From positions 1-64,000 of IMG/VR virus record IMGVR_UViG_3300018875_000005: a stretch of DNA of 64,000 nucleotides; one strand, 5' to 3'. Position numbers and translations under genes: made by a program. Source of the stretch: a virus. Positions 1 through 54,736 of this stretch are shown one piece after another; the stretch's first letter is position 1, and every line of letters begins with the position of its first letter. The notes below the pieces were generated by a model. It was not told the DNA's origin, ran no database searches, and saw only the letters and a program-made list of their open reading frames with translations.

Positions 1-29
1 CGATCTGGAACCAGCGCAACCCCGCCTGA
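1..29 (+). CDS. 3' end of an upstream gene (partial)
   Basis: In frame 3 the window opens with eight codons ending in a TGA at 27-29. This would be the tail of a gene whose body lies outside the window. Nothing about its function can be read from so few residues, and the call rests only on an open frame next to the following operon. Confidence 0.25.
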
Positions 30-243
30 ACCCCGAACCCGCCGAACCCCTGGAGAACCCGAACCATGAACCAGCCCACCCGAACCCGAACCGCCCCCGC
101 CGAGGTTCGCGAACCTTCCGCCCGGCCCGCGCCGGCGCCGGTTCGCGAACCCCTCCCCGGAGGGAGGTTCGCGGTTCGGGTACCGCCCGGCCCGGTTCCG
201 GCCGCCCCGTCCTGGAGCGAGCGGCTGCTGCCCCGCCCGGTTC
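8..243. repeat. GAACC half-site array with three TTCGCGAA palindromes
   Basis: GAACC starts at 8, 28, 35, 44, 55, 61, 68, 82, 88 and 111, and again at 147. The reverse word GGTTC starts at 104, 140, 166, 173, 194 and 239. Where the two meet they form palindromes: AGGTTCGCGAACCT (103-116), GGTTCGCGAACC (140-151) and GGTTCGCGAACT (239-250). The array spans the start of a coding gene, whose valine codons are forced to GTT at these sites although GTC/GTG dominate elsewhere. It looks like a protein-binding array. A conjugation cis-locus, centromere or iteron set are the options, and the protein is unknown. Confidence 0.6.
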
Positions 244-593
244 GCGAACTCCTCGCCGACCTCGGCTGGTGGACCAACCCCACCCCCCAGCCCCCCTCCC
301 GGCACCTGCTCCAGGTCCGCGACACCCTCACCCGCTACGGCTGGTGCCAGACCGCGGACCTCTCCCCCACCGGCCGGATGTGCATCCGCGGCGCCCAGCA
401 CCTGCTGGAACGCACCGGCCACGTCACCCCCACCGCCCGGACCCGGGCGGTCGGCTACCTCGAGCAGGTGCTCCGCACCGACGGGGTCCAGATGTCCTTT
501 TTCGCCTGGAACGACCTGCCCGACAACACCCCCGACACCGTGATCCGCGTCCTGGACCAGGCCGCGAACCTCGCCGCCCGAAACGGAGACTGA
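66..593 (+). CDS. DUF6197-like hypothetical protein
   Basis: This is a 175-aa protein. Residues 1-75 are Pro/Arg-rich and low in complexity, with three VRE repeats encoded by the palindromes. Residues 80-175 form a compact alpha-helical domain with GRMCIRGA and a FFAWND..PDTV.RVLDQAA ending. That pattern resembles the DUF6197 proteins common in Streptomyces plasmids and phages (from memory, not searched). The gene at 57559-57990 appears to be a distant relative. It is the first gene of a rightward operon, six bases ahead of the next. No function is known for the family. Confidence 0.6.
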   Translation: MNQPTRTRTAPAEVREPSARPAPAPVREPLPGGRFAVRVPPGPVPAAPSWSERLLPRPVRELLADLGWWTNPTPQPPSRHLLQVRDTLTRYGWCQTADLSPTGRMCIRGAQHLLERTGHVTPTARTRAVGYLEQVLRTDGVQMSFFAWNDLPDNTPDTVIRVLDQAANLAARNGD

Positions 594-599
594 CCCGCC

Positions 600-1175
600 A
601 TGACCAGCCCCTACCACGACTTCAACGACGACGACATCGCCGCCCGCTTCGACGGCATCGCCCAAAGCCTCACCCCCGACCCCGCCCCCTACGAAAACCC
701 GCAGGTCACGGCCGCCTCGCCCGGCCTGACCCGGCGCGGGAAGGCCGCCCTGGCCACCGGCGCGGCCCTCCTGATCGGCGGCGGCGCCCTCGCCTGGTCC
801 TCCTACGCCGCCTCCCAGGCCCAGGCCGAGGTCAAGGCCGCCGAACTCGCCCTGCAGAGCGAGCGGCTGGAGCTGGAGCGCATCCAGGCCCTGAAGGACG
901 CCAACGCCCCCACCGCGTCCCGGCGCAGCAAGGACTTCGACCGCTGCGTCGACAAGGCCCTCGCCACCAAGAGCGCCTACACCAGCGCCGCCGAGGTCAT
1001 CGAGCAGTGCAACGCCGCCTTCCCCCCGCAGACGTCCCTGGACACCCAGCCCGTGGTCTCCCGGGACGATCCCGCCCAGGAGGGCGGGATCGGCACCGAC
1101 GGCCTGCTGGTGGCGCTGGCCGCCGGGGGCGCCGGGGCTCTTCTCCTGGCCCGCAAGGCCAAGCACAGCCAGTGA
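600..1175 (+). CDS. Two-TM membrane protein with coiled coil
   Basis: This 191-aa protein has an acidic N-terminus, a transmembrane helix at about 50-68 (AALATGAALLIGGGALAW), a charged helical region at 75-105 likely to be a coiled coil, a pair of cysteines (about 119 and 141), and a second hydrophobic segment at about 165-185 followed by a basic tail. It lies between the DUF6197-like gene and the transfer genes. Small membrane proteins of this kind (Spd-type) accompany traB in Streptomyces plasmids, where they help intramycelial spread. That role is inferred here from position only. Confidence 0.6.
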   Translation: MTSPYHDFNDDDIAARFDGIAQSLTPDPAPYENPQVTAASPGLTRRGKAALATGAALLIGGGALAWSSYAASQAQAEVKAAELALQSERLELERIQALKDANAPTASRRSKDFDRCVDKALATKSAYTSAAEVIEQCNAAFPPQTSLDTQPVVSRDDPAQEGGIGTDGLLVALAAGGAGALLLARKAKHSQ

Positions 1176-1302: not shown

Positions 1303-3021
1303 ATGGCGGACAACACCCCTCCGACACCCCCGGGCACCCCCCCGACGGCCCCCGGGAACACCGCCGGCACCACCCCTGCGGCGGCACCCCAGACCGGGCA
1401 GACCGGGCTCCTGGCGTCCGCGCTGACCCCCGTGGCGCCCGCCCGCCCCATCGCGACCAGCGCCGCGCACCACGGCAGCACCGCCCCCCTGGCCACCTCC
1501 GCCGACACGACCGGCCGGGCCGGCGGGGAGTCCATCCCCCGCGCCCTCCTGCTGGCCCTGGTGGAGCGCTGGCGGGCCCGCCCCGCCCTCGCCCAGAAGA
1601 AGCTCGAGGTGGAGAAGGAGAAGGCCCGGGGCCTGCAGGTCAAGGAAAACCGCAGCACCCAGGCCACCACCCAGTCGATCAGCAAGAACGAACGTCGCAG
1701 CGACGGCCGGACCGAGGCCCGCAGCCTGGGAGAGCACAAGAACCACCGGCAGGACCAGCACAAGAGCGACGGCAGGAACCACCGCGACACCCGGTCGGCC
1801 GGCACCACCTCCCGGCAGGACCGCAACGACCACAAGAACGAGCGCCGCCACGACGGCAAGAACCACCACACCCGGGACCACAAGGGCAGCGACACCGGCG
1901 AGCACCGCCGCCGCTCCGACCGCAAGGAAGACCGGAAGGACCACCGCCAGGCCGACACCAAGAGCCACCGGGGACACGACCGGAAGGAACCGGGCCGGGG
2001 GAACGCCACCGACCACCGCACCGGCGACCGGAGCGACCACCGCAAGACCGACACCAGGGCCGGCGGCCAGGACGGCCGCACCCCGAACTGGCACCCGTCC
2101 CGCGGCGTCCTCGGCGGCCTCTTCAAACGCAAGGGCGACCACGGCAAGACCAGCGCGCAGGCAGTCCGGGACACGGTCTCCAACGGCCCGGCCCACACCG
2201 GCCGGCACGGCCCGGGAGACCAGCCGGACCGCTCAAAGAAGCCCGACCCGAAGAGCCCGAAGGAGCCGCACCGGACCTCCGGACCGGACCGGAAGGACCA
2301 GCCCCGGACCAAGCCCGCCCGCGAGGCCGGCTACCGCGACGGCCACCGCGCCGGAGTCGTCGTCCAGCACGCCAAGGCATACCGCGACGGCGTCCGGGAC
2401 GGCTGGACGGACGCCGCCGCGCAGGGCGCCCGGGAGAAGCAGGCCCTGGACACCGCCCGCGCCCGCCGCCAGAAGGCCCTCACCACACAGCAGAAGCAGA
2501 AGCAGAAGCAGGAGCAGCCCGTGCCGCCCACCACCCAGGCAGCCGCCCCGGCCACCACCGACACCGCCCAGCCCATCCAGGTCACGGGCGTCGACAAGGA
2601 CGGCGTCACCCTCGGCGCCGGCGCGGACCGGCCCTACCTCACCCGCGGCGAGGTCCGCACCATGAAGCAGTTCGAGCGGCGCCTGGCCGCCCGCGCCGCC
2701 CAACTGGCCACGGCCGCCGAGCGGACCCGGGGCCTGAAGGCCCACGCCGATGCCCAGGCCCAGCGCGCCCAGACCCTCGCCGACCTCACCCGCCGCGTCA
2801 AGGGCGGCGCCAGCCTGCTGCCCGTCCTGGACCGCCTGGCCGAGGCCGCCCAGCAGCAGGCCGCCAAGGCCGGCGAGATCCACACCCGCGCGCTGCGCGC
2901 CGCCGAGAAGGCCAAGGCCGTGGCCGCGAACGTGCAGCGCCGCGACGGGCTGATCTACCAGGCCGTCATGGACTCGCCCGAGACCGAACCCGCCGAGCTG
3001 GACTTCTACAAGGGGAACTGA
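1303..3021 (+). CDS. Large charged protein of the transfer operon
   Basis: This is a 572-aa protein. Residues 1-60 are Pro/Thr/Ala-rich. Residues 105-340 are extremely rich in Lys, Arg, His, Asp and Gly in short repeated units (such as KDHR, RKDHR, HDRKE) and are probably disordered and nucleic-acid binding. A GYRDGH/YRDGVRDG patch follows at about 343-370, then a Gln/Lys tract near 390-405. Residues 430-572 are alpha-helical and coiled-coil-like. It does not resemble a family I recognise. Position just ahead of the translocase gene suggests a transfer accessory. The next gene overlaps its stop codon (TGATG). Confidence 0.6.
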   Translation: MADNTPPTPPGTPPTAPGNTAGTTPAAAPQTGQTGLLASALTPVAPARPIATSAAHHGSTAPLATSADTTGRAGGESIPRALLLALVERWRARPALAQKKLEVEKEKARGLQVKENRSTQATTQSISKNERRSDGRTEARSLGEHKNHRQDQHKSDGRNHRDTRSAGTTSRQDRNDHKNERRHDGKNHHTRDHKGSDTGEHRRRSDRKEDRKDHRQADTKSHRGHDRKEPGRGNATDHRTGDRSDHRKTDTRAGGQDGRTPNWHPSRGVLGGLFKRKGDHGKTSAQAVRDTVSNGPAHTGRHGPGDQPDRSKKPDPKSPKEPHRTSGPDRKDQPRTKPAREAGYRDGHRAGVVVQHAKAYRDGVRDGWTDAAAQGAREKQALDTARARRQKALTTQQKQKQKQEQPVPPTTQAAAPATTDTAQPIQVTGVDKDGVTLGAGADRPYLTRGEVRTMKQFERRLAARAAQLATAAERTRGLKAHADAQAQRAQTLADLTRRVKGGASLLPVLDRLAEAAQQQAAKAGEIHTRALRAAEKAKAVAANVQRRDGLIYQAVMDSPETEPAELDFYKGN

Positions 3022-5724: not shown

Positions 5725-5847
5725 CCCGGAAGACCAGTGAACGGCCCCGCCCACCCGGGCGGGGCCGCGGTGTACCGAATCCGCCCCACCCCGCACCGCT
5801 TAGACCGGACACTGAGAACCCACCACCTGAAGGAGGCCCCGACCACC

Positions 5848-6543
5848 GTGGCCAGCCCGTCCCGCCGCCGCACCCCCCGGCCTGCGCGCCGCACCGCAGG
5901 CGTCCCCCGGCAACGCCCCACCCCCCGCCCCACCCGGAAGACCAGGGAACCGCTGCTCATCCCGACCAGCCTCCGCAACGCCGCCTCCTACCTCCACGGC
6001 TGGGCCTGGATCGCCGCCGGCGTCACCGCCGGCACCATCCTCATCCTCTGGACCGAGTACGTCATCGCCGCCTGCGTCGCCGCGCTGATCGCCGCCTCCT
6101 GGTGGGACCGGCACCACGCCCCGTTACGCCCCCGCACCCCCGCCGCGGGCGGCCTCGCCCAGTACCGGGCCATGGCCCCCACCGCGTTCGAGGACGCCAT
6201 CGCCGCCCTCGCCCGCCGCTCACCCGACGTCGCCCGCGCCACCCGCGCCGGCGGCTCCAACGACCGCGCCCTCGACGTCCTCGTCCAGCTCCGCGACGGC
6301 CGCCGCATCCTCATCCAGTGCAAGCGCTACACCGGCAACGTCGGCGCCCCCGCCCTGTACCAGGTCAACGGCACCTACCGGTCCACCCACCGCTGCCAGA
6401 TGGCCGTCGTCGTCACCACCGCCGGATTCACCCGATCCGCACTGGAATGGAACGCCTCCCTGCCCCGCGCCGAACGCCTCCGCCTGGTCGACGGGCCCGC
6501 CCTCATGGCCTGGGCCCGGGGCGGACCACCCCCCTGGGCATGA
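5848..6543 (+). CDS. Mrr-like restriction endonuclease, membrane-anchored
   Basis: The GTG start at 5848 is chosen because AAGGAGG precedes it by about ten bases. The open frame extends further upstream without an SD. The 231-aa product has a basic N-terminus, two transmembrane helices (about 50-85), then a PD-(D/E)XK Mrr_cat-type domain: FEDAIAALARR, GGSNDRALDVLV with the catalytic Asp, and ILIQCKRY with the QxK motif. Such TM-Mrr proteins cleave modified or foreign DNA, or process plasmid DNA. It directly follows the translocase gene and ends at a strong terminator, so it is the last gene of the transfer operon. Confidence 0.75.
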   Translation: MASPSRRRTPRPARRTAGVPRQRPTPRPTRKTREPLLIPTSLRNAASYLHGWAWIAAGVTAGTILILWTEYVIAACVAALIAASWWDRHHAPLRPRTPAAGGLAQYRAMAPTAFEDAIAALARRSPDVARATRAGGSNDRALDVLVQLRDGRRILIQCKRYTGNVGAPALYQVNGTYRSTHRCQMAVVVTTAGFTRSALEWNASLPRAERLRLVDGPALMAWARGGPPPWA

Positions 6544-52451: not shown

Positions 52452-52517
52452 TGACGGCCCGTCTCCGGCTGCGGGACAGCCGCCCGGGGCGGTCTTCATT
52501 ACGGCGTAATGAAGACC
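52437..52517. promoter_or_regulatory. parS: parS/operator palindromes upstream of parA
   Basis: GTCATTACGACGTAATGAC (52437-52455) is a perfect palindrome with one central base. A second palindrome at 52491-52517 has 13-bp arms (GGTCTTCATTACG and its inverse) around one base. Their centres are 58 bp apart. The shared core CATTACGnCGTAATG recurs at 54479-54493 inside parB. They precede parA by 67-147 bp. Three copies around one par operon point to the ParB centromere, with possible operator function for ParA. Confidence 0.8.
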
Positions 52518-52583
52518 GGGCGGGAGAGTGAAACACGGAGCCTCCTGCTCCTCACCCGCCTCACGCGTCAGTATGGTGACGCC

Positions 52584-53732
52584 ATGGCATCTCCGTATCC
52601 CGACGGCGACCGGGAAAAGGTAGCGTCGAAGCTCCCGGCCGCACTCCGGCAAGAACTCAAGATCCGCACCGCCGAGCACGGCGTCGACATCCAAGACGCC
52701 GTCACCGAAGGCATCCACGCCTGGCGCGCCGACGACGGCCCGCATCCGACCGTCGACACCGCCGGCGCCGAGTCCTTCTCCACCTGGCTCCCCGCCGGCC
52801 TCTACGACTCCTTCAAGACGACCTGCACCGCCCGCGGCATCTCCTACACCCAGGGCCTAGCCCAGTCCGTCCGCCGCTGGCTGGAGACCCACCCCTCCCC
52901 CGGCCGGCAGCCCCACACCGGACCCCAGCGCAAAATCGTCTGCAACCAGAAGGGCGGCGTGGGCAAGACCGCCATCGCCGCGGGGATCGCCCAGGCATAC
53001 GCCGAGGACGGCAAGCGGGTCCTCCTCATCGACTACGACCCCCAGGGCCACCTGACCGAACAGCTCGGCATCGCCCAGATCCCGCCGGGCGAGGACAGCC
53101 TGGTGGCCCACATGTGCGCCGAGGGCAAAGCCGACCTCCGCGACCTGCTGGTCACCTTCGAAGACGAGCGCTTCGGCAAGCGGCTCCAGATACTGCCCGC
53201 GTGCTTCGACGGGTTCCTCCTGGACGCGAAGATCGCCACTAACACCCGCATCCGGCGCCGCGAGACCACTCTGGAGCGGGCCCTGGAACCGCTGGAGGCG
53301 GACTTCGACGTCGTCGTCATCGACTGCCCGCCGTCCCTGGGTATCGCCATGGACGCCGCCATCTACTACGGCCGCCGCCGCGAGGGGGAGCCCGAAGGCG
53401 TCTCCGGCGTCATCATCCCCGTCCTCGCCGAGGACTCCTCCGCCACCGCCTACGCCATGCTCACCGAACAGATCGAATCGCTGAAGGAAGATCTCGAGCT
53501 GGAACTGGACTACCTCGGCCTGGTGGTGAACCTGTACGACTCCCGCCGCGGGTTCGTCGCCACCTCCAGCCTCAAGCAGTGGAAGAGCCTGGGCGACCCC
53601 CCAGTCCTGGCGGTCATTGGAGACCTGAAGGAGCAGCGCGAGGCCGTCCGCATGGGCAAGCCGCTGCTGACCTACGCCCCCCACTGCGACCAGGCCGAGG
53701 CCATGCGGCAGATCGCGAGGGCCGCATCGTGA
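52584..53732 (+). CDS. parA: ParA partition ATPase with RHH-like N-terminus
   Basis: The frame opens at 52509, inside a palindrome, so the ATG at 52584 is preferred. TATGGT at 52572-52577 could be a -10 box, which would make the mRNA leaderless. The 382-aa product has about 100 N-terminal residues with two ribbon-helix-helix-like segments (KLPAALRQELKIRTAEHGVD, TWLPAGLYDSFKTTCTARGI). The ATPase follows: KGGVGKTAIAAG (about 123), LLIDYDPQG and VVVIDCPPS (about 243). ParA moves plasmid-ParB complexes over the nucleoid. It overlaps parB (GTGA). Confidence 0.92.
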   Translation: MASPYPDGDREKVASKLPAALRQELKIRTAEHGVDIQDAVTEGIHAWRADDGPHPTVDTAGAESFSTWLPAGLYDSFKTTCTARGISYTQGLAQSVRRWLETHPSPGRQPHTGPQRKIVCNQKGGVGKTAIAAGIAQAYAEDGKRVLLIDYDPQGHLTEQLGIAQIPPGEDSLVAHMCAEGKADLRDLLVTFEDERFGKRLQILPACFDGFLLDAKIATNTRIRRRETTLERALEPLEADFDVVVIDCPPSLGIAMDAAIYYGRRREGEPEGVSGVIIPVLAEDSSATAYAMLTEQIESLKEDLELELDYLGLVVNLYDSRRGFVATSSLKQWKSLGDPPVLAVIGDLKEQREAVRMGKPLLTYAPHCDQAEAMRQIARAAS

Positions 53733-54736
53733 CCGGCAAGGCCAAGCAGCTCGGCGCCTCGTCGGCGTTCGGCCGCGCCGGGACCGCCCGCAGCGCCCGC
53801 GGCCGACTCGCCGAGAAGGTCCTGGGCGGCAGCGACGACGGGCCGACCCGTCTCGCTCTCCACCTGCTCAGCCACAACCCGGACAACCCGCGTGACTCCC
53901 TGCCCGACGTCACCGAGCTGGCCGCGTCCCTACGGGACCACGGGCAGAAGTCCGCGGTGACCATCATGTCCCGCGAGGCGTATCTGGCGGCCAACCCCGG
54001 CCGCGAGGACGAACTCGAACCGCGGGCGGAGTACGTCGTCATCGACGGCAACTGCCGCCTGGCCGCCGCCCGGCAGGCCGGCCTGTCCTCACTGCGGGTC
54101 ATGATGGACGAGTCCCTGGGCGGCGACCCGGACGAGCTGCTGGAGTCCGCGCTGGTGGCCAACATCCACCGCCAGGACCTGGCCCCCCTGGACGAGGCGC
54201 GGGCGCTGAAGAAGCTGCTGGAAGTGCACGGCACTCAGGAGAAGCTGGCCAAGCGGCTGCACCGCTCCCAGGGCTGGGTCTCCCAGCGGCTGGCGCTGCT
54301 GTCCCTGACGCCCGAGCTGCAAAAGCGCCTCGAGGCCGGGGAGGAGCCGGTAGACCTGCTGCGCGCGGTGGGGAAGAAGCCGCCGGAGCGGCAGGAAGAG
54401 GAACTGGCGCGGCTGAAGGAGGAACGGACCCGGAAGCAGACTGCGAGGCAGGCGGCGAAGCAGTCCGGGGAAGACGGCCATTACGGCGTAATGAGGAGGA
54501 AGGCGCGCCCGGCCGCGTCTCCCGTTCCCGCGACCGGGGAAACCCCGCCTCCACCGGTCCCGCCGGCTCAAGCCGAGCCGCCTGCCCCGCCGGCCCCGAC
54601 TGGAGCGGCTGGAACGGAACCGCGGCGGGTGACGGTGACACTGCCGCTGCACGACCCCGGGGCGGTGTGCCTGATCCTGCGCGAGCGGATGGAGCCCGAG
54701 GCGTTGCAGACCCTCATCAAGCTCCTCACCCAGTAG
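53729..54736 (+). CDS. parB: ParB centromere-binding protein
   Basis: The GTG at 53729 overlaps the parA stop. The 335-aa product has an N-terminal ParB/Srx domain (about 40-125) with a DGNCRLAAARQAG CTP-binding patch (variant of GERR) and NIHRQDLAPLDEARALKKLL, then an HTH (TQEKLAKRLHRSQGWVSQRL, about 169-195). A Pro-rich linker leads to a C-terminal dimerisation segment. One parS-type palindrome lies within its coding sequence near residue 252. It spreads from parS and is segregated by ParA. Confidence 0.92.
   Translation: MTGKAKQLGASSAFGRAGTARSARGRLAEKVLGGSDDGPTRLALHLLSHNPDNPRDSLPDVTELAASLRDHGQKSAVTIMSREAYLAANPGREDELEPRAEYVVIDGNCRLAAARQAGLSSLRVMMDESLGGDPDELLESALVANIHRQDLAPLDEARALKKLLEVHGTQEKLAKRLHRSQGWVSQRLALLSLTPELQKRLEAGEEPVDLLRAVGKKPPERQEEELARLKEERTRKQTARQAAKQSGEDGHYGVMRRKARPAASPVPATGETPPPPVPPAQAEPPAPPAPTGAAGTEPRRVTVTLPLHDPGAVCLILRERMEPEALQTLIKLLTQ
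54479..54493. promoter_or_regulatory. parS: Third parS-type palindrome, inside parB
   Basis: CATTACGGCGTAATG is identical in core and centre to the second site upstream of parA. It encodes HYGVM inside a linker of ParB, a place where coding constraint is low. Its persistence suggests selection on the DNA site. Confidence 0.7.

Follow-up and report, generated by a model that had tools for sequence, protein, structure and literature searches.

A dense array of the short words GAACC and GGTTC lies at the start of the DNA analysed here, and it raises the question of what the array is for and which protein reads it. The window, the whole stretch of 64,000 nucleotides, comprises bases 1–64000 of an 86,092-bp virus record and is one end of a probably circular, 86-kb Streptomyces phage-plasmid. 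The element encodes a terminase and a portal as well as ParA and a weakly matching ParB (parAB at 52509–54736), and its size and gene content match those of pSLE1, pSAM1, and similar Streptomyces phage-plasmids. A 147-bp repeat is present at both ends of the record and has a single mismatch, at window base 21; the placing of base 1 is accordingly arbitrary. The element is probably a circle of ~85.9 kb. We infer this circularity, as the cut that produced the record probably fell within the repeat array. The stretch left of the cut was taken directly from the record, whose end repeats the first 147 bp of the window, and the gene that ends at base 29 is therefore complete there. This gene, most of which lies beyond the window, encodes a predicted membrane protein with a helix-turn-helix (HTH) segment that is the likely reader of the array, and it is referred to as the reader gene (Table 1).

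Table 1 Positions of the array and of the genes around it. Coordinates are those of the window unless a record or locus is named.
Feature	Position	Strand	Remarks
Reader gene, last 29 bases	1..29	+	whole gene G000:C1:84199-85974 (L008:1199-2974), 591 aa
Array, right-hand part	8..250	.	11 GAACC, 6 GGTTC; word count
Array, remainder	G000:C1:85574-85822		27 GAACC, 1 GGTTC; upstream of base 1, beyond the window
DUF6197 gene	66..593	+	array end in 5′ third; GTT valines at 105, 141, 174, 195, 240
191-aa protein	600..1175	+	conserved operon member; no family match
572-aa charged protein, probably coiled-coil	1303..3021	+	conserved operon member; no family match
FtsK-like DNA translocase, 746 aa	3484..5724	+	C-terminal winged-helix-like tail; without array

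The preliminary description had counted 17 words within bases 1–250, and our recount agreed with it (GAACC starting at 8, 28, 35, 44, 55, 61, 68, 82, 88, 111, and 147; GGTTC at 104, 140, 166, 173, 194, and 239). These words are correct but constitute only the right-hand third, or tail, of the feature. Extension upstream of base 1 gave 28 more words, and the whole array spans ~615 bp across the record junction (−371 to +243) with 38 GAACC and 7 GGTTC. The array is thus real and larger than first described. Most of its words lie within the last quarter of the 591-codon reader gene, and it continues through the intergenic gap into the DUF6197 gene. Three joined palindromes had also been described; GGTTCGCGAAC does occur at 104, 140, and 239, but the full 12-bp palindrome is present at the first two positions only. 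The GGTTCGCGAACC palindromes are confined to the region downstream of the reader gene end and are a minority, most words being direct repeats ~7–9 bp apart. The densest 640-bp stretch holds 45 words, against 6 in the runner-up of the element and 8 at most in any such stretch when the whole element was dinucleotide-shuffled 100 times. For 250-bp stretches, the corresponding numbers are 28 for the best of the element, 17 for bases 1–250, and 6 for the best in the 100 shuffles.

Codon usage pointed to selection at the DNA level, as had been proposed. In the DUF6197 gene, which is embedded in the right-hand part of the array, 5 of the 13 valine codons are GTT and all five are located at GGTTC sites; the GTT share in seven other genes is 3 of 199 valine codons. 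Word counts above those of codon shuffles that keep the protein are in agreement with this. A second proposal, an array of replication iterons, was not supported by the geometry. Short repeats are indeed dense in one place, but iteron origins have regularly phased repeats of ~17–22 bp beside an initiator gene, and the words here are 5–7 bp long, spaced by 5–40 bp without a regular period, and found on both strands. We also recognised no initiator gene in the neighbouring stretch. We regard this explanation as extremely improbable.

The reader matches DUF2637 (PF10935) above the Pfam curated cut-off (1.9e-26, 93.3 bits), and residues 36–165, within this domain, include hydrophobic segments. The middle part is a long charged stretch, probably a coiled coil, and is followed by a linker (residues ~455–535) in which E, P, N, and R are abundant and whose coding sequence is the array. 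The predicted C-terminal HTH-like segment begins near residue 537. The AlphaFold model of the pSLE1 reader has a helical N-terminal half, a disordered linker at residues 222–314, and a C-terminal three-helix HTH-like unit with pLDDT values of ~88–90 (92–93 when modelled alone). The predicted disorder of the linker suggests why so dense a signal can occupy coding DNA. A Foldseek search with the isolated pSLE1 HTH domain gave only weak matches, none with an E value below 0.4, and many of these were HTH regulators (Lrp/AsnC, BusR, DeoR, SlmA). Fold searches with whole reader models were uninformative, and a search of the viral contigs gave no close relatives of the reader or the ParB of this element.

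The DUF6197 gene is a conserved neighbour and was used as an anchor to find relatives, which yielded 16 plasmid loci, 27 viral contigs, and 21 genome contigs with duplicates among them. About 50 relatives keep a reader-position gene in the same operon, in the order GntR, small genes, reader, DUF6197, coiled-coil gene, and FtsK-like translocase. Specifically, a large membrane/HTH-type gene is directly upstream of the anchor in most loci, and between DUF6197 and the FtsK-like gene the annotated plasmids have two or three conserved genes. Directly 3′ of the FtsK-like gene, the window has an Mrr-type restriction endonuclease gene (5737–6543), and the relatives have varied accessory genes there. 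The Pfam profile of DUF2637 has no match in several of the other reader types. The phage-plasmids pZL12, pSLE1, and pSAM1 are elements of the same kind, and both pSLE1 and pSAM1 have the operon with reader and array. The same operon is also present on three linear plasmids (S. clavuligerus pSCL2, one S. albidoflavus plasmid, and one S. cyaneofuscatus plasmid). No terminase was found in the 26-kb stretches read of these plasmids, and a phage-packaging role of the module is thus unlikely.

In most of these relatives a comparable array occupies the reader-position gene, and its word is a different one. The position of the array is therefore conserved in related elements but its word is not, and the way in which the word changes between elements is the informative part. 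GAACC is the word of this element. The others are TGAGCC in nine loci (pSLE1 type), TGAGCG in seven, TGATGCG in five (pSAM1 type), CGGACCG in four plus L140, CGAAGC in L012, L016, L021, and L112, words of the GTACG type in L059, L142, and L147, CTGGCA in L032 and L043, GAGACC in L067, GCGAA in L015, CGTGAAC/GAGAAC in L117, and CGTCACG in pSCL2. When codons were permuted within each gene with the protein kept, the z scores were ~7–20 for most words and lower for L015, a weak array (~5–6), and pSCL2 (4.5, partly accounted for by Val-Thr codons). Among 132 ORFs ranked by this score, the nine highest scores, and 11 of the highest 12, belonged to reader genes. These values bear on the explanation that the words have no DNA function and arise as a by-product of repeated amino acids and biased codons. 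The linker composition described above is what such an explanation would draw on, and a few arrays such as that of pSCL2 are partly codon-driven. Across the relatives, however, the words occur in all three frames and on both strands and often continue beyond the stop codon, their counts are far above those of the codon shuffles, and in the DUF6197 gene of this element every GTT valine is at a site. The by-product explanation is largely refuted already and is hardly credible.

The module can do without an array: neither L019/L049/L050 nor about ten "DLYFDL" loci, which represent two further reader types at this position, yielded one with contiguous or gapped words. A weak excess of GGGCGCA (3–5 copies) was seen in most of the "DLYFDL"-type genes (L020:6660-7856, L023:6687-7874, and similar). 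The array is not a property of DUF2637 itself either, because chromosomal DUF2637 genes, with ends of ...EEDHIA or similar, had background word scores. DUF2637 was present in all 121 of the 121 Streptomyces genomes searched, and our literature search found no paper on its function. One chromosomal-type DUF2637 gene (L096) is the sole exception, with 9 copies of TGTGAA/TGTGAAC against 0.4 expected. Readers of another type (L056:4057-6294 and L060:4007-6571) have a long N-terminal coiled coil weakly similar to Scy and DivIVA; this similarity to polar growth proteins suggests possible targeting to the hyphal tip.

To identify the protein that the word follows, pairs of loci with the same word and pairs with different words were compared for 23 loci with an array and a full FtsK gene. 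The last 70 residues of the reader, containing the HTH, separated the two kinds of pairs perfectly (AUC 1.0), and the reader membrane domain reached an AUC of 0.99. Because the array and the HTH are in one gene, descent alone explains part of this link, and the argument depends on cases of exchange and on the failure of the neighbours. L015 has the membrane type of pSAM1 (similarity 0.47–0.59) with an unrelated HTH (0.05–0.06) and a different word, and it has the membrane type in common with L041, from which it also differs in HTH and word. Similarly, L021 and L043 have a DUF2637 membrane type in common (0.51) and differ in HTH (0.08) and word. Related HTHs go with related words, as in CGAACC/CGAAGC and in one HTH family with three GTACG-type words. 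The link was repeated in genomes outside the class definition (three TGAGCG and four CGGACCG loci). Over the 23 loci, DUF6197 had an AUC of 0.52, and the other neighbour families gave 0.43–0.64. The neighbouring operon genes were accordingly rejected as readers.

The preliminary description had suggested a transfer locus for the array and a TraB-like winged helix as its reader. The first part is plausible, as a short-repeat array does lie beside transfer-type genes, with the FtsK-like gene of a conserved operon 3.2 kb downstream. Several known systems give this setting: the transfer regions of pSVH1, pJV1, and pIJ101 (TraB/clt) and of pWTY27 (TraA/clt) likewise combine an FtsK-type pump with a short-repeat array whose word differs between plasmids (PMC3583192; PMC12857230). 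In a classical clt, the C-terminal winged helix of the translocase would bind the words, as TraB of pSVH1 does with its 8-bp repeats, and the FtsK-like protein encoded in the operon here has a winged-helix-like tail. The words, however, do not follow it, the AUC being 0.55 for the winged helix and 0.51 for the motor (23 loci). The FtsK tails of L024 and L023 are identical, yet only L024 has an array (TGATGCG), while unrelated tails occur with the same word. In addition, no arrays were found within the FtsK genes themselves. FtsK was thus rejected as reader, and we consider a classical clt very unlikely. Unlike in the TraB/clt systems, the word here tracks an accessory membrane HTH protein and not the pump, and the array is mostly inside the gene of that protein, ~3 kb from the pump gene. 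The HTH membrane protein is, on these comparisons, the better candidate reader.

A further possibility was a partition site, bound either by ParB as a centromere or by the reader, which would secure inheritance by tethering the DNA to the membrane. In favour of it, ParA and a ParB candidate are encoded on the element, a DUF2637 gene follows parAB on several large linear plasmids, and spdB2 is reported to stabilise SLP2 in a study cited by PMC4170104. On the circle, ~31 kb separate the array from parAB, which argues against a ParB centromere, and among the 10 ParBs compared the word did not follow the ParB type: pSAM1 and pSLE1 have a ParB type in common and differ in word, and the ParBs of two TGATGCG elements are unrelated. 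ParB was rejected as reader, and a partition site as a whole appears unlikely, although the reader-tether form may still hold.

The reader could also bind within its own gene to repress or roadblock the operon, since that gene and the first part of the one after it both contain sites. An operator would need far fewer than 45 scattered words, most relatives already have a GntR-type regulator at the head of the operon, and autoregulation leaves the membrane domain unexplained; we therefore regard it as improbable. A known precedent for sites in the coding region of their own binding protein is SpdA2/sps of pIJ101 (PMC4170104), to which the present array is similar in this respect, with binding here predicted. 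The sps site is a single conserved 12-bp palindrome, CGTCACGTGACG, that occurs in 1–3 copies and is bound by proteins of 117–163 aa. The arrays described here differ in having ~10–45 copies of 5–7 bp words, and the words vary between elements, so that CGTCACGTGACG is not common to all members. The reader genes are also larger (302–879 codons) and encode hydrophobic membrane-like segments. The pSCL2 word CGTCACG (L141:6537-7919) resembles half of the sps palindrome and is partly explained by Val-Thr codons.

As far as sequence comparison reaches, the array occupies a conserved position, is under DNA-level selection, and covaries in its word with the HTH. The reader is predicted to bind the array, and we hold this to be very probable. 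It is probable that the array provides the sites of an HTH protein that is anchored in the membrane and encoded in cis, and it would serve as the recognition or anchoring site of an FtsK-type transfer or spread module. In such a mechanism, several HTH heads on long flexible linkers would bind the 5–7 bp words, and the membrane part would tether the element DNA to the membrane, next to the FtsK-like pump of the same operon. The pump and other operon proteins would then move or spread the tethered DNA, and the array would act as a clt-like site for conjugal transfer or mycelial spreading. Protein and site would be exchanged together as a cassette, and every element would thus have an address of its own. 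As to the putative use, the chances of transfer or spread are about even, maintenance by tethering is a tentative possibility, and a role mainly in control of its own operon is doubtful. On some large linear plasmids DUF2637 lies beside parAB with repeats outside the gene, and this fits a maintenance role as well.

The proposed arrangement has parallels in the SpdB-type spread proteins, which are likewise membrane proteins encoded with a translocase. The SpdB2 protein of pSVH1 is an integral membrane protein that interacts with TraB and binds DNA, the latter reportedly without specificity (PMC4170104). Spd proteins are inserted in the membrane and required for intramycelial transfer (PMC12857230), and transfer of pZL12 and SCP2 requires adjacent genes besides the major tra gene (PMC3583192). 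The literature supports the setting, and the mechanism proposed here goes beyond it. While clt arrays, Spd proteins, and sites within the gene of their own binding protein are already known, no papers on arrays such as the present ones were found in the open-licence literature searched. The DNA mark for transfer is not settled in many Streptomyces elements, and no clt has been described for the AICE pSAM2 (PMC9513070). Our results supply a candidate reader and site, with about a dozen naturally matched protein–word pairs (including pSLE1, pSAM1, and pSCL2) that constitute natural data for an HTH recognition code. Streptomyces plasmids and phage-plasmids may carry widespread self-addressed transfer modules, in which a membrane-tethered HTH protein would set the identity of the element for transfer or anchoring through ~10–45 word copies in its gene and the FtsK pump would be generic, although we rate the opposite as equally probable.

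DUF2637 genes were also observed right after a parA-parB type pair on large Streptomyces plasmids (L113:1059-5416, L114:5676-8467, L115:1682-5740, and L116:1387-5494). Dense word clusters are present at L116:5509-6110 (TGGCCGA, 16 copies) and L118:5226-5830 (CTGGTGA, 11 copies); they lie across or beyond the end of the DUF2637 gene and do not fill the linker.
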